Shown: in pieces, positions 45,886-51,027 of the stretch | Layout of the letters: every line of letters begins with the position of its first letter | How positions within the stretch are numbered: position 1 is the stretch's first letter | Assembly (NCBI GenBank): GCA_001871905.1 | Contig: MNUG01000029.1 | Location: forward strand, 32,218-96,217 | Length of the DNA: 64,000 bases | DNA from: Alphaproteobacteria bacterium CG1_02_46_17 | GTDB taxonomy: Bacteria > Pseudomonadota > Alphaproteobacteria > Micavibrionales > Micavibrionaceae | Direction: 5' to 3' | Position numbers and translations under genes: made by a program | Notes under the pieces: model-generated | Told to the model about the DNA's origin: nothing | The model's database searches: none | Seen by the model: the letters and a program-made list of their open reading frames with translations, nothing else

Positions 45886-46845
45886 ATGTCTGCAGGATTT
45901 CTAGCCCTACTCGATGACGTTGCCACCATCATGTCAAAGGCCGCGGCCGGTCTGGATGACGTCGCCACCATGGCAGGGGTCGGCGCCAGAGGAGCCAGCG
46001 CCGTGGTCATTGATGACATTCCGGTCAACGCCCAAGCCGTCACCGAATTTGAAATCGATGCCAAACGCGAAGTACCGATTGTCAGGGCGATTGAAAGAGG
46101 CTCACTCATTAACAAATCAATTGCCATCCCCCTTGCGATGGTTGTTAACAGCTTTGCGCCTTTCCTTCTCACACCGATTCTGGCTTTGGGTGGTGCATAT
46201 CTCGGATTCGAAGGCGCAGAAAAAGTAATTCACGCTGTGCGCGCCAAGCTGGGCAAACATCATGAAGACAAAGAAAATGGCGACACTACTGTGGCCAAAA
46301 CTCAGGAAGAATTTGAAACCCAACTGGTCAAAGGGGCCATCCGTACCGATCTGGTGATGTCGATTGAAATTGTTTTCATTGCACTGGCCAGTATCAACGA
46401 CCTGATGCCTGATGCCCATTGGGGTATGATGCTGATTACCCTGATCATCATCGGATATCTGATTACCAAGATTATATACGGATTGGTTTTGGGGTTATTA
46501 CGGCTCGATGATCTGGCGCTCCACCTGACAGTGACCGCCAAAGAAAATAGAGCCGGAGCGTATAAAAAACGTCTGGCGGTATGGATTATCCGTTTATCAC
46601 CCCCATTGATGAAAACCATGTCGGTCGTCGGGGCCGCTGCGATGTTGTTTATCAGTGGTGAATTGCTGAGCAAACAATTCACCTTCATTTCCGATGCAGT
46701 CCACCACATCACCCCCGAGTTTATCAGTGGGCCATTTCATTTTCTGGCTTACTCGGTTGTGGGGCTGACAGTTGGAGCGGTTCTGATTGGCACGATGAAA
46801 CTGGCACAACGGGCAATGAAAGACCCGATGCCAGGAGGAGGCTGA
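45886..46845 (+). CDS. DUF808/YedI-family membrane protein
   Basis: A 319-residue inner-membrane protein that starts with the family signature 'AGFLALLDDVATIMSKAAAGLDDVATMAG' and contains 'GARGASAVVIDDIPVN'. About six hydrophobic segments follow. The family is widespread but has no established function. The 3' end overlaps the antisense terminator of the first copy of the duplicated intergenic RNA element. Confidence 0.88.
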   Translation: MSAGFLALLDDVATIMSKAAAGLDDVATMAGVGARGASAVVIDDIPVNAQAVTEFEIDAKREVPIVRAIERGSLINKSIAIPLAMVVNSFAPFLLTPILALGGAYLGFEGAEKVIHAVRAKLGKHHEDKENGDTTVAKTQEEFETQLVKGAIRTDLVMSIEIVFIALASINDLMPDAHWGMMLITLIIIGYLITKIIYGLVLGLLRLDDLALHLTVTAKENRAGAYKKRLAVWIIRLSPPLMKTMSVVGAAAMLFISGELLSKQFTFISDAVHHITPEFISGPFHFLAYSVVGLTVGAVLIGTMKLAQRAMKDPMPGGG

Positions 46846-46921
46846 CATCGGGCTTCAATATGGTCGGTCTATGGTGTCTTGGTATAAGGTGTTGAACCAC
46901 CCTATATTTTCATAATCTCAT
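46815..46921 (-). ncRNA. Candidate small RNA, tandem copy 1
   Basis: This region shares with 46998-47119 a conserved core (minus strand CCAAGACACCATAGACCGAC) and a terminator-like hairpin. On the minus strand the hairpin is an 11-bp stem (CCCGATGTCAG / CTGGCATCGGG, one G-T pair) with loop CCTCCTC, followed by a weak TCTTTC tract. The loop is pyrimidine-rich and complementary in part to a Shine-Dalgarno. The 5' boundary is set by the end of similarity (GATTAT followed by an AAATATA-like tract), not by a proven promoter. The 3' end lies antisense to the last codons of the DUF808 gene. Confidence 0.5.
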
Positions 46922-46997
46922 ATGATTGTGGCAAAATTTTGGTCGATGATTGCCTTAATTAAGATTTTTCTGCCTTTTTTATCAGAAAATACCTATA

Positions 46998-47119
46998 TAA
47001 AAAAATGCCCGATGTCAGGGGGGCTAACATCGGGCTTCAGTGATGGTCGGTCTATGGTGTCTTGGGTTAAGGTCTTTCTAGCTGAAACTATTCGGTCCTT
47101 ATATTTCTATAATCCCATG
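46998..47119 (-). ncRNA. Candidate small RNA, tandem copy 2
   Basis: The second copy of the duplicated element. On the minus strand it contains the conserved core, then a 12-bp hairpin (GCCCGATGTTAG / CTGACATCGGGC, one T-G pair) with loop CCCCC, followed by A and seven T: a strong intrinsic terminator. A weak TTGATC...ATTATA pair 18 bases apart lies upstream at 47137-47108. No protein gene upstream on the minus strand needs this terminator, as acnA and the DUF808 gene are both on the plus strand, which argues for an independent RNA. The rest of the gap to acnA (47120-47369) shows nothing I can support. Confidence 0.58.
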
Positions 47120-47369
47120 TTTTGACCTCTCGATCAAGCGCTGAATTCAAAATTATGCTTATGCGTCAATGACTTATACAAATGGCTATACCACAATTTA
47201 CACCCTATACTTTTGGCACAAATCCCCTATCCTTCTTGCTCGAAATCCACTCATAATCTTTACGCTTTTTTATTAAATTAGGAAGAAGATGGGGAACCCT
47301 GACCATGTCGGGCACTTTGTTTATTTTCAACGCACTACAAACAACATTCATGTCTTTTGAGGTTCCACT

Positions 47370-50042
47370 ATGACACGCGCTGGCCACGATACGCTTCAAA
47401 CCCGTAAAACACTGACAATCGACGGGAAATCCTACGATTACTTCTCTTTGAAAGACGCACAGGCCAAAATCGGTGATCTCTCGACCCTGCCTTTCTCTCT
47501 TAAGGTTTTGTTTGAAAATCTCTTGCGCTTTGAAGATGGCCGCTCGGTTCATGTTGAACATATCGAATCCCTGAAAGAATGGCTGCAAAAACGCACCTCA
47601 TCTCAGGAAATCGCTTACCGCCCTGCGCGCGTTCTGATGCAGGATTTCACAGGCGTTCCCGCTGTGGTGGATTTGGCCGCCATGCGTGAAGCCATGGGTG
47701 ATCTGGGTGGAAACCGTCAAAAAATTAACCCGCTGACCGCTGTTGATCTGGTCATTGACCACTCGGTGATGGTGGATGCTTTCGGTGGCGCAGACTCGTT
47801 CAAGAAGAACGTCGATATCGAGTTTGAGCGCAACGGAGAACGTTATGCCTTCTTGCGTTGGGGACAAACAGCCTTCAAAAATTTCCGTGTCGTACCACCC
47901 GGAACCGGTATCTGCCATCAGGTCAATCTGGAATATCTGGCACAAACTATCTGGGTTGAAGAAGATGAAGATAAAGCAGGTACGATGCTTGCCTATCCGG
48001 ATACATTGGTTGGAACCGACTCTCACACCACCATGGTCAATGGTCTGGGTGTCCTCGGATGGGGGGTCGGCGGGATTGAAGCCGAAGCCGCCATGCTCGG
48101 ACAACCTGTTTCTATGCTGATCCCTGAAGTCATCGGATTCAAACTCACCGGACAAATGAAAGAAGGCAACACGGCAACCGATCTGGTTCTCACCGTAACG
48201 CAGATGCTGCGTGCCAAAGGCGTGGTAAATAAATTCGTTGAATTCTATGGCCCCGGCCTTGATAACCTTTCTCTCGCTGACCGTGCCACCATTGCCAACA
48301 TGGCTCCTGAATATGGCGCAACATGCGGATTTTTCCCGATTGATGCTGAAACCATCCGCTACATGAATTTTACAGGTCGTGACTCTCACCGCGTGAAACT
48401 GGTCGAGGCTTACGCCAAGGAACAAGGCATGTGGCGCGATTCTGGCACGCCTGATCCGGTCTTCACCGATACATTAGAACTTAACCTGAATGATGTGGAA
48501 CCGTCTCTGGCGGGCCCTAAACGTCCACAAGACCGCGTGCCATTGTCAAAAATGCCTGAATCAATAAAATCAATCGTGCCTGAACGTCGATCAATTCCGG
48601 TTGATGGCGCAGATTATACTCTGGATGATGGCGCAGTCGTTATTGCAGCAATCACGTCTTGCACCAATACCTCGAACCCGTCTGTACTGGTCGCGGCAGG
48701 CCTTGTGGCCCGCAAAGCACTGGCCAAAGGACTAACCGTCAAGCCATGGGTCAAAACATCTCTGGCTCCCGGCTCGCAAGTTGTCACTGACTATCTGAAC
48801 AAGGCCGGTTTGCAAGCCGACCTCGACAAGCTCGGATTTAATCTGGTCGGATATGGATGCACCACCTGTATCGGAAACTCTGGCCCTCTGCCAGCACCGA
48901 TCGCCAAGGCTGTCGAAACCGGTGATTTAACCGTATCGGCCGTTCTCTCTGGCAACAGGAACTTCGAAGGTCGTGTCTCGCCACATGTCAAAGCCAACTA
49001 TCTGGCATCACCTCCTTTGGTTGTCGCATACGCTTTGGCTGGAAATACCCATCTTGATCTGCTGAACGAACCTTTGGGAACCGGCAGTGATGGACAACCT
49101 GTCTATCTGAAAGACATCTGGCCAACCAATAAGGAAATCCGTGAGATGGTTGAAAGCTGCCTGACATCGGACATGTTCAAATCACGGTACGCCGATGTGT
49201 TCAAAGGCCCCGAACAATGGCAAGCCATTAGTGCAGATACTGCAGGTGAAGTTTACGACTGGGATGCCAAATCAACCTATGTCGCTAACCCGCCATATTT
49301 CCATGGCATGTCGAAAACATCCGGAATCATCTCGGATATTAAAAACGCAAATATCCTCGCCCTGTTTGGCGACTCCATCACCACAGACCATATTTCCCCT
49401 GCCGGAAACATCAAAAAAGATTCTCCGGCTGGAAAATATTTGATGGAACACGGTGTCGAAGTCGCTGACTTCAACTCCTACGGCGCACGTCGTGGAAACC
49501 ATGAAGTCATGATGCGCGGAACCTTTGCCAATATCCGCATTAAAAACGAGATGCTCGATGGCGTCGAAGGCGGCCTGACCAAATATGTTCCAACCGGCGA
49601 ACAAATGCCAATCTATGACGCCGCGATGAAATATAAAGAAACCGACACGCCGCTTGTGGTCTTTGCCGGTAAAGAATATGGCACCGGATCATCCCGTGAC
49701 TGGGCAGCAAAAGGAACTATTCTTTTAGGTGTAAAGGCCGTCATTGCCGAAAGTTTCGAACGCATCCACCGATCTAATCTCGTCGGGATGGGTGTTCTGC
49801 CTCTGGTCTTCAAAGATGGCATGACTCGTCAGGATCTCAAACTCACAGGAAATGAAACCATCAGCATCACCGGAATCGAAAACGGTATCATTCCACATAT
49901 GGATGTTAATCTGACATTGACCCGTAGAAACGGATCAACCGAAACTGTCAAATTAATGTGCCGCATTGATACCCTTGATGAAGTCGAATATTATAAAAAC
50001 GGTGGCGTTCTGAATTACGTTTTAAGAGGTCTCGCCTCATAG
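47370..50042 (+). CDS. acnA: Aconitate hydratase AcnA
   Basis: Aconitase A isomerises citrate and isocitrate in the TCA cycle using a 4Fe-4S cluster. The 890-residue protein has cluster ligands in '[12 protein letters not shown]' and '[12 protein letters not shown]', the 'DSHTTM' active-site motif, and the C-terminal swivel domain with '[18 protein letters not shown]' and '[13 protein letters not shown]'. The length is typical of the AcnA/IRP group. It stands alone, with its own terminator. The long upstream gap contains the duplicated small-RNA element on the other strand. Confidence 0.97.
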
Positions 50043-50064: not shown

Positions 50065-50095
50065 AAAAAAAGCCTTCTTATGAAGGCTTTTTTAT
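50065..50095. terminator. Bidirectional intrinsic terminator after acnA
   Basis: AAGCCTTC / GAAGGCTT with loop TTAT, flanked by A-run and T-run on the two sides, extends to a nearly palindromic structure. It serves acnA on the plus strand. On the minus strand it lies at the 3' end of the convergent 311-residue gene, whose stop is within the flank. Confidence 0.9.
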
Positions 50096-51027
50096 TTTAT
50101 GCCGAATTGCGAAGATTCAATCAGATGATGCTGAAACTCTGCGGATTCCTTTGCAATCGCAGCGAAATCAGGGCGTTCGGGGCGAAAGCGCACATCCAGC
50201 ATATTCTCAAAACCATTAATTTCGGTGGAAATTTCTTCCAGTCGTTTCCGCGCAGAAATATTCTCGAACGCTTCTGGCGAATTATTGCTGTTGGCTTTCC
50301 CCATTGCGATCAATTCATTATTCATCCCCAAACGCACCGAGATCTGGATCCCTTCCAGAAAGGCGGCGCTGACATTTAGGCATTGTACGGGAGACACTCC
50401 GAAATCCGAAGATTTTCGTTCGGCGACAAAATTGAATGTTGTGTTTTTATAAGGATTGCGGAGGATCAGACCACACCGTCCAATCTCGTCATTCACATGC
50501 GCGACCATACCGATATTCGAGTTGTGAGAGATTGAAACAGACCGTCCCATTTTTTTGAACGTGTCTTCGGCGATTAAAACCGCACCATCATAATTCCCCG
50601 GATTTTTGGAATCACATTTTTCAATGACATCGAGAAACGGGTGATAGCTTCCTTCCGAAAACACCACCTTTGAATTATTATACAAGCAGATCCACGGCTT
50701 ATCAGAATATTTTTCATCATGTGATGTCCGAGTCATATCCCAGCCATCCTTGAAATTAAAAGGAACCTGCCGCGCCATGATCGGCCCCGATCTTTGGTAG
50801 GTCTGGATAATCTGGGCCGCCATCCGTATGGCAGAGTGCATAACTCTCGCCCGTACGATAAACGTTTCGACCACATCCCCGTTGGAATGCCGCAACGGAA
50901 CAACTAGCCTGTTGCTCATCGCAATCAGAGTTTCGGCAGAGGTCGCATCATGGGGATCAAGATCCCTGATTACAAAGCGCTCCCGCAACAAAGTTGTGTT
51001 TAATTCCACGCCGAATTTCTCGTACAA
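50092..51027 (-). CDS. Hypothetical protein, 311 residues
   Basis: No family recognised. It is a soluble protein with a mixed strand/helix pattern: 'NRLVVPLRHSNGDVVETFIVRARVM', 'KPWICLYNNSKVVFSEGSYHPFLDVIEKC' and 'ISHNSNIGMVAHVNDEIGRCGLILRN'. No signal peptide or membrane segment is seen. It converges with acnA across a shared terminator. About 65 bases upstream lies the terminator of a structured RNA-like region, so it may have its own promoter or be expressed by readthrough. Confidence 0.65.
   Translation of the reverse strand: MYEKFGVELNTTLLRERFVIRDLDPHDATSAETLIAMSNRLVVPLRHSNGDVVETFIVRARVMHSAIRMAAQIIQTYQRSGPIMARQVPFNFKDGWDMTRTSHDEKYSDKPWICLYNNSKVVFSEGSYHPFLDVIEKCDSKNPGNYDGAVLIAEDTFKKMGRSVSISHNSNIGMVAHVNDEIGRCGLILRNPYKNTTFNFVAERKSSDFGVSPVQCLNVSAAFLEGIQISVRLGMNNELIAMGKANSNNSPEAFENISARKRLEEISTEINGFENMLDVRFRPERPDFAAIAKESAEFQHHLIESSQFGIK

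Follow-up and report, generated by a model that had tools for sequence, protein, structure and literature searches.

Two copies of a short element lie in direct orientation between a DUF808 gene and acnA in the window (i.e., the whole 64,000-nucleotide stretch of DNA that was analysed), which raises the question of whether they are sibling small RNA (sRNA) genes on the minus strand, as a sequence-only reading had proposed, and of what such RNAs would regulate. No paper on sRNAs of Micavibrio relatives was found in the literature searched, and no known Rfam family reached its gathering score in the whole window. The two copies, c1 and c2, appear to be two of three paralogous trans-acting sRNA genes in a previously undescribed RNA family, which has no matching family in Rfam and usually lies beside aconitase across its own taxonomic family; an aconitase-tied sRNA found family-wide would offer an initial entry point to post-transcriptional control in this lineage.

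Structure and strand of the repeated element

Each copy would be transcribed on the minus strand from an extended -10 promoter of its own to an intrinsic terminator, with the following features (window coordinates).

45886..46845, plus strand: DUF808 gene (PF05661, 1.7e-74), convergent with c1
46819..46905, minus strand: putative c1 sRNA (copy 1), about 87 nt from the predicted +1 to the T-run, convergent with DUF808
46823..46853, minus strand: c1 terminator hairpin, 12 bp, anti-Shine-Dalgarno-like loop CCTCCTC, compensatory changes
46860..46878, minus strand: c1 conserved unpaired core GACACCATAGACCGACCAT
46884..46905, minus strand: c1 5' stem-loop AUAGGGUG/CACCUUAU, compensatory changes in relatives
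46912..46920, minus strand: c1 extended -10 element TGAGATTAT, conserved in 53 promoters
46927..46970, minus strand: c1 upstream operator region with AAGGC, CGACCAAAA and TTGCCACA elements
46999..47102, minus strand: putative c2 sRNA (copy 2), about 104 nt, divergent from acnA
47007..47035, minus strand: c2 terminator hairpin, 12 bp, all-C loop, followed by ATTTTTTT
47043..47061, minus strand: c2 conserved unpaired core GACACCATAGACCGACCAT
47109..47117, minus strand: c2 extended -10 element TGGGATTAT, with an upstream region unlike that of the other copies
47370..50042, plus strand: acnA (TIGR01341), divergent from c2

The direct repeats shared by c1 and c2 comprise 34 nt (91%) and 21 nt (90%) at a spacing of 182-183 bp, which agrees with the spacing of about 180 bases first noted; the repeat length of about 100 bases given at the same time shrinks to a strongly repeated part of approximately 70 bp (86% identity), with differing 5' ends. 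Both copies carry the C-rich minus-strand hairpins described earlier, albeit with 12-bp stems throughout rather than one of 11 bp, and the core indeed precedes each hairpin (46878-46860 and 47061-47043). Minus-strand folds of the two copies fall far below those of shuffled sequences (z -4.4 and -5.6). On the plus strand, by contrast, folding is no better than in shuffles (z -1.5 and -0.9) and the hairpins lack a T-run; a plus-strand structure or riboswitch was rejected on these grounds.

Since DUF808 and acnA are both encoded on the plus strand, no upstream minus-strand gene needs a terminator, as had been pointed out. The last 23 nt of the DUF808 coding sequence (end at 46845) fall within the c1 terminator, a detail absent from the sequence-only reading. 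In addition, c1 and many of its relatives are convergent with a gene end, which would fit elements without sRNA function, either conserved terminators (intrinsic or bidirectional) of adjacent genes or a REP-like repeat. We regard this explanation as very improbable, however, as c2 terminates nothing, the strand has no upstream gene, the plus strand has neither a T-run nor folding beyond shuffle level, and conservation extends beyond the terminator to the promoter, 5' stem, core and loop. A REP element, for which many copies on both strands would be expected and which the sequence-only reading had named as its own refutation, was rejected because the genome holds just three copies, each a unit of promoter, RNA and terminator.

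The predicted RNA starts with AUA(A/G)GG, whose pairing with CCUUAU gives the 5' stem, and continues with the unpaired core (ACACCAUAGACCGACCAU in both c1 and c2) and the terminator. The 5' stem of c1 orthologues shows compensatory changes, and 24 copies from the genus show double changes in 14 of 19 pairs with scores reached by no shuffle; the alignment behind these genus scores was fitted to the model and is hence biased to the structure, and slid controls attained at most one third of the score. For the terminator, compensatory changes were found across 58 loci in all nine pairs (95 cells; 0 of 500 shuffles), with 98.4% paired and a covariation score of 0.595 versus 0.204 when shuffled; near the 3' end, every one of the 58 loci has an 8-nt window that contains 5 T or more. 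Apart from c2, whose loop is a C run in every species (about 5-6 C, CCCCCC, in the window copy), the genus copies all share the loop CCTCC(T) without variation. Orthologues differ by indels of 1 and 4 nt, which are not multiples of three and argue against a coding role. The loci thus present the general features of trans-acting sRNAs (a predicted promoter of their own, a conserved fold, an intrinsic terminator and non-coding sequence), and comparison across genomes argues strongly for a transcribed, structured sRNA; the proposal of sibling sRNAs on the minus strand is backed by conservation, promoters and covariation alike.

Copies in the genus and synteny with acnA across the family

Searches used two covariance models, R1 and R2, and a third model, R3, that spans promoter, RNA and terminator. 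DNA search together with R1 and R2 identified three copies in the genome that contains the window (G000), including c1 (95.0 bits with R1, 83.2 bits with R2), c2 and a third copy, c3, at G000:C7:45107-45224. The latter is unlinked to c1 and c2 and is flanked by a divergent DDAH-like gene and by a convergent gene for a secreted HExxH-type protein, followed by folD. All 11 genomes of the genus carry one to three copies each; the copy in G009 scores only E 0.27 with R1, but 5e-6 with R2 and 4e-27 with R3. In six genus genomes each, c1 adjoins DUF808 and c2 adjoins acnA, with the two on different contigs in G003 and 0.5-2.2 kb apart in other genomes. The term tandem duplication is therefore apt only in part; c1 and c2 are separate orthologous groups, which one relative carries on different contigs, and c3 is unlinked. 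Further copies in other species adjoin phosphoribosyltransferase, glyS or alaS genes. G008 carries promoter plus sRNA in two near-identical versions at unlinked positions (L077:4115-4218, between glyS and DUF808, and L078:4045-4148, at alaS), and their outer flanks are unrelated, which suggests a moving unit of about 150 bp. A pattern scan of 85,462 species found the core together with GAAGCC confined to the genus, in records of Micavibrio sp. UBA5572 and UBA6212 and of Alphaproteobacteria MAGs; Micavibrio sp. UBA5572 is placed in Bdellovibrionota in the NCBI taxonomy, though related MAG records are titled Alphaproteobacteria.

Beyond the genus, R3 matched 65 of the 142 genomes of the order at E <= 0.05, although matches with E above 1e-3 are partly due to chance; 57 of these genomes fall within the family (of 104), and matches outside it are weak. 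In a class sample of 385 genomes, only noise-level R3 scores were obtained outside the family, such that the covariance search across alphaproteobacteria suggested earlier places the gene in 57 of 104 family genomes, with convincing scores nowhere else in that sample. Weak R2 matches in other family genomes are mostly unrelated terminators, except for those with confirming promoter and synteny. Among the 34 loci outside the genus, 27 are divergent from acnA within 1 kb (median distance of 137 bp from the model match) and 14 converge, at 700 bp or less, with the HExxH gene, next to which folD often lies. The synteny with acnA is not circular, because only two (G107 and G064) of the 17 sequences used to train R3 come from loci near acnA. 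Synteny with both acnA and the HExxH gene and folD across the family indicates that the ancestral order was probably folD, HExxH gene, sRNA, acnA; in the window's genus, c3 retains folD and the HExxH gene while c2 retains acnA. The HExxH gene next to folD encodes a secreted protein of about 240 aa across the family (L069:4233-4955 on G000:C7, L104:727-1476, L106:796-1494), for which no significant Pfam or NCBIfam family was found, with weak resemblance to DUF922.

The conserved neighbourhood could also mean that the RNAs act chiefly on adjacent genes, with c1 affecting DUF808 through cis-antisense or terminator overlap and the acnA-side copy affecting acnA through transcription interference or leader pairing. 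The overlap of the c1 terminator with the DUF808 stop, the acnA adjacency kept over the family and the frequent convergence with the HExxH gene are all consistent with this explanation, which we nevertheless consider unlikely. The neighbour is not constant, given that c1, c3 and the copies at phosphoribosyltransferase, glyS and alaS genes in other species adjoin different genes, and the energies of duplexes that each RNA (c1, c2 or c3) forms with the start region of acnA were inconsistent over five species (z -2.7 to +1.8), with values for c3 always about zero or positive. On this basis the acnA leader was rejected as a direct target; of the earlier suggestion that acnA might be a target, the linkage holds up over the family, while the pairing with its mRNA does not.

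Promoters and a putative operator

The promoter is conserved both within the genus and outside it. An upstream region common to c1, c3 and further genus copies reads CG(C/A)CCAAA, (T/C)GCCA(C/T)A and TGnGATnnT, followed by the start, for which we infer the A of AUA(A/G)GG, 7 nt after the extended -10 element TGnGATnnT. Two GGC half-sites 11 bp apart are found upstream in many genus copies, and the operator elements AAGGC, CGACCAAAA and TTGCCACA are common to c1, c3 and family members and absent in c2, which keeps the extended -10 element without the upstream region and aligns with R3 only from model position 50. The operator-like region at 46927-46970 combines direct GGC repeats, which many relatives have at a distance of 11 bp, with inverted GNCACA arms; in G111 and G112 these arms change jointly to TGTGAC and GTCACA, which suggests that one transcription factor binds at the operator. 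A sigma-54 reading of the GGC repeats (GG-N10-GC spacing) was rejected, as TTGC is not conserved and the start would lie far upstream of the RNA.

The ancestral gene, divergent from acnA across the family, may report central carbon or iron metabolism, and its multiplication in the window's genus would have left the old operator with c1 and c3 and the acnA position with c2. With neither the operator nor the common loop (CCCCCC instead), c2 is probably under other control and has other targets. A more far-reaching possibility, which we hold tentatively, is that the sRNA family accompanies acnA family-wide as its fixed neighbour and its partner in function, reporting TCA-cycle or iron status via the operator with its GGC and GNCACA arms, and that the genus siblings have acquired separate control and loops (CUCCUCCU versus CCCCCC). 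If this partnership with acnA and the diversification of the siblings are true, the family would represent a natural experiment in sRNA retargeting; the three siblings, one with a missing operator and one with a changed loop, offer a direct way to test how regulation and targets diverge among duplicated sRNAs.

Relation to known sRNA families and candidate mode of action

Several alphaproteobacterial sRNA families resemble the window RNAs. The best Rfam match is ar14 (RF02344; NfeR1 of Sinorhizobium) for c1 (19.8 bits), c3 (32.7 bits) and the relative in G086 (27.3 bits), in all cases below the gathering score of 58.8. Like the window RNAs, ar14 is alphaproteobacterial and about 100-125 nt long, and it shares with c1 and c3 an anti-Shine-Dalgarno CCUCCU in the terminator loop and a conserved operator upstream of the promoter; however, ar14 has three hairpins, each with CCUCCUCCC (PMC10746234), while the window RNAs have one CCUCCU loop, in the terminator, and c2 has none. 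The alphaR8 family (MmgR; SisA-D of Caulobacter) likewise has a weak 5' hairpin, an unpaired C-rich stretch and an intrinsic terminator, and forms several siblings with unrelated promoters per genome (PMC12559287), but its single-stranded 10-nt core UUUCCUCCCU is absent from c1, c2 and c3, although UUCCUCCCU in one distant relative (G071) matches 9 of its 10 nt. In addition, alphaR8 adjoins an FGase gene, unlike the window family with its acnA, DUF808, DDAH-like and HExxH neighbours; assignment to alphaR8 by synteny was rejected after the FGase loci of five genomes proved to carry no such motif and nothing like the sRNA. Membership among the CcsR or 'cuckoo' RNAs, to which the loop of c1 had been likened, does not stand. 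CU-rich motifs and several copies are common to both, but CcsR RNAs arise by RNase E processing of a ccaF1 (DUF1127) co-transcript under an RpoH promoter (PMC10253847), while each copy here has its own predicted promoter, and no DUF1127 gene was found among the neighbours scanned. Finally, AbcR1 and AbcR2 (ar15) also form a homologous sRNA pair with CU-rich pairing motifs (PMC8844928, PMC5461406), but have other neighbour genes, and ar15 gave no Rfam match in the window (up to E 10) or in relatives. From these comparisons, we rate the RNAs as a new family within a kind of regulator that is already known.

Paralogous trans-acting sRNAs, whose C-rich loop is directed against Shine-Dalgarno regions, probably with Hfq, are in our judgement the best and a reasonably probable explanation of these loci. 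The CUCCU-type terminator loop, invariant in c1 and c3, together probably with the exposed, unpaired core and Hfq, would pair with target mRNAs at their Shine-Dalgarno region, which would keep ribosomes from binding and reduce translation of the targets. Repression of target translation is the likely action by analogy with NfeR1, in which such anti-Shine-Dalgarno loops repress translation (PMC10746234), and with SisA, in which a C-rich stretch pairs with mRNAs (PMC12559287). Hfq is encoded (E 1.5e-30), though NfeR1 itself is Hfq-independent. Outside the genus, 32 of 34 RNAs contain CUCC, CCUC or UCCU (shuffle mean 21.4, maximum 28), and GGAG-type words are depleted (8 versus 15.4). Counting against this explanation, the CUCC-type motif occupies the terminator loop within the genus and often an upstream unpaired region outside it, so that the seed is not positionally fixed, and the all-C loop of c2 can pair only poorly with AGGAGG.

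Alternatively, the siblings could bind partners other than mRNAs; they might, for example, be sponges or clients of purine-rich sRNAs, or a decoy for a protein. Their sole conserved exposed features are C-rich and would fit purine-rich partners, and in Caulobacter sibling families are sponge clients, CrfA and SisA binding each other (PMC12559287); the depletion of GGA-type words in the RNAs themselves speaks against this explanation, which we deem improbable. Returning to pairing with mRNAs, target prediction with the core, put forward earlier as a check, yielded no target. Near-complements of the core were no commoner than those of the control (26+26 versus 26+22), those examined mostly lacked start-codon context, and a unique core target was rejected, the best-looking near-complement lying inside a PBP1-type coding sequence.

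Two further observations concern the surroundings of acnA. A 311-aa protein, for which no Pfam family was found, is encoded at 50092-51027 on the minus strand, convergent with acnA, at a position conserved in the genus. The acnA leader contains a short hairpin, CCTGACCATGTCGGG, at 47298-47312, with related sequences in the leaders of G006 and G010, which makes it a possible leader element.
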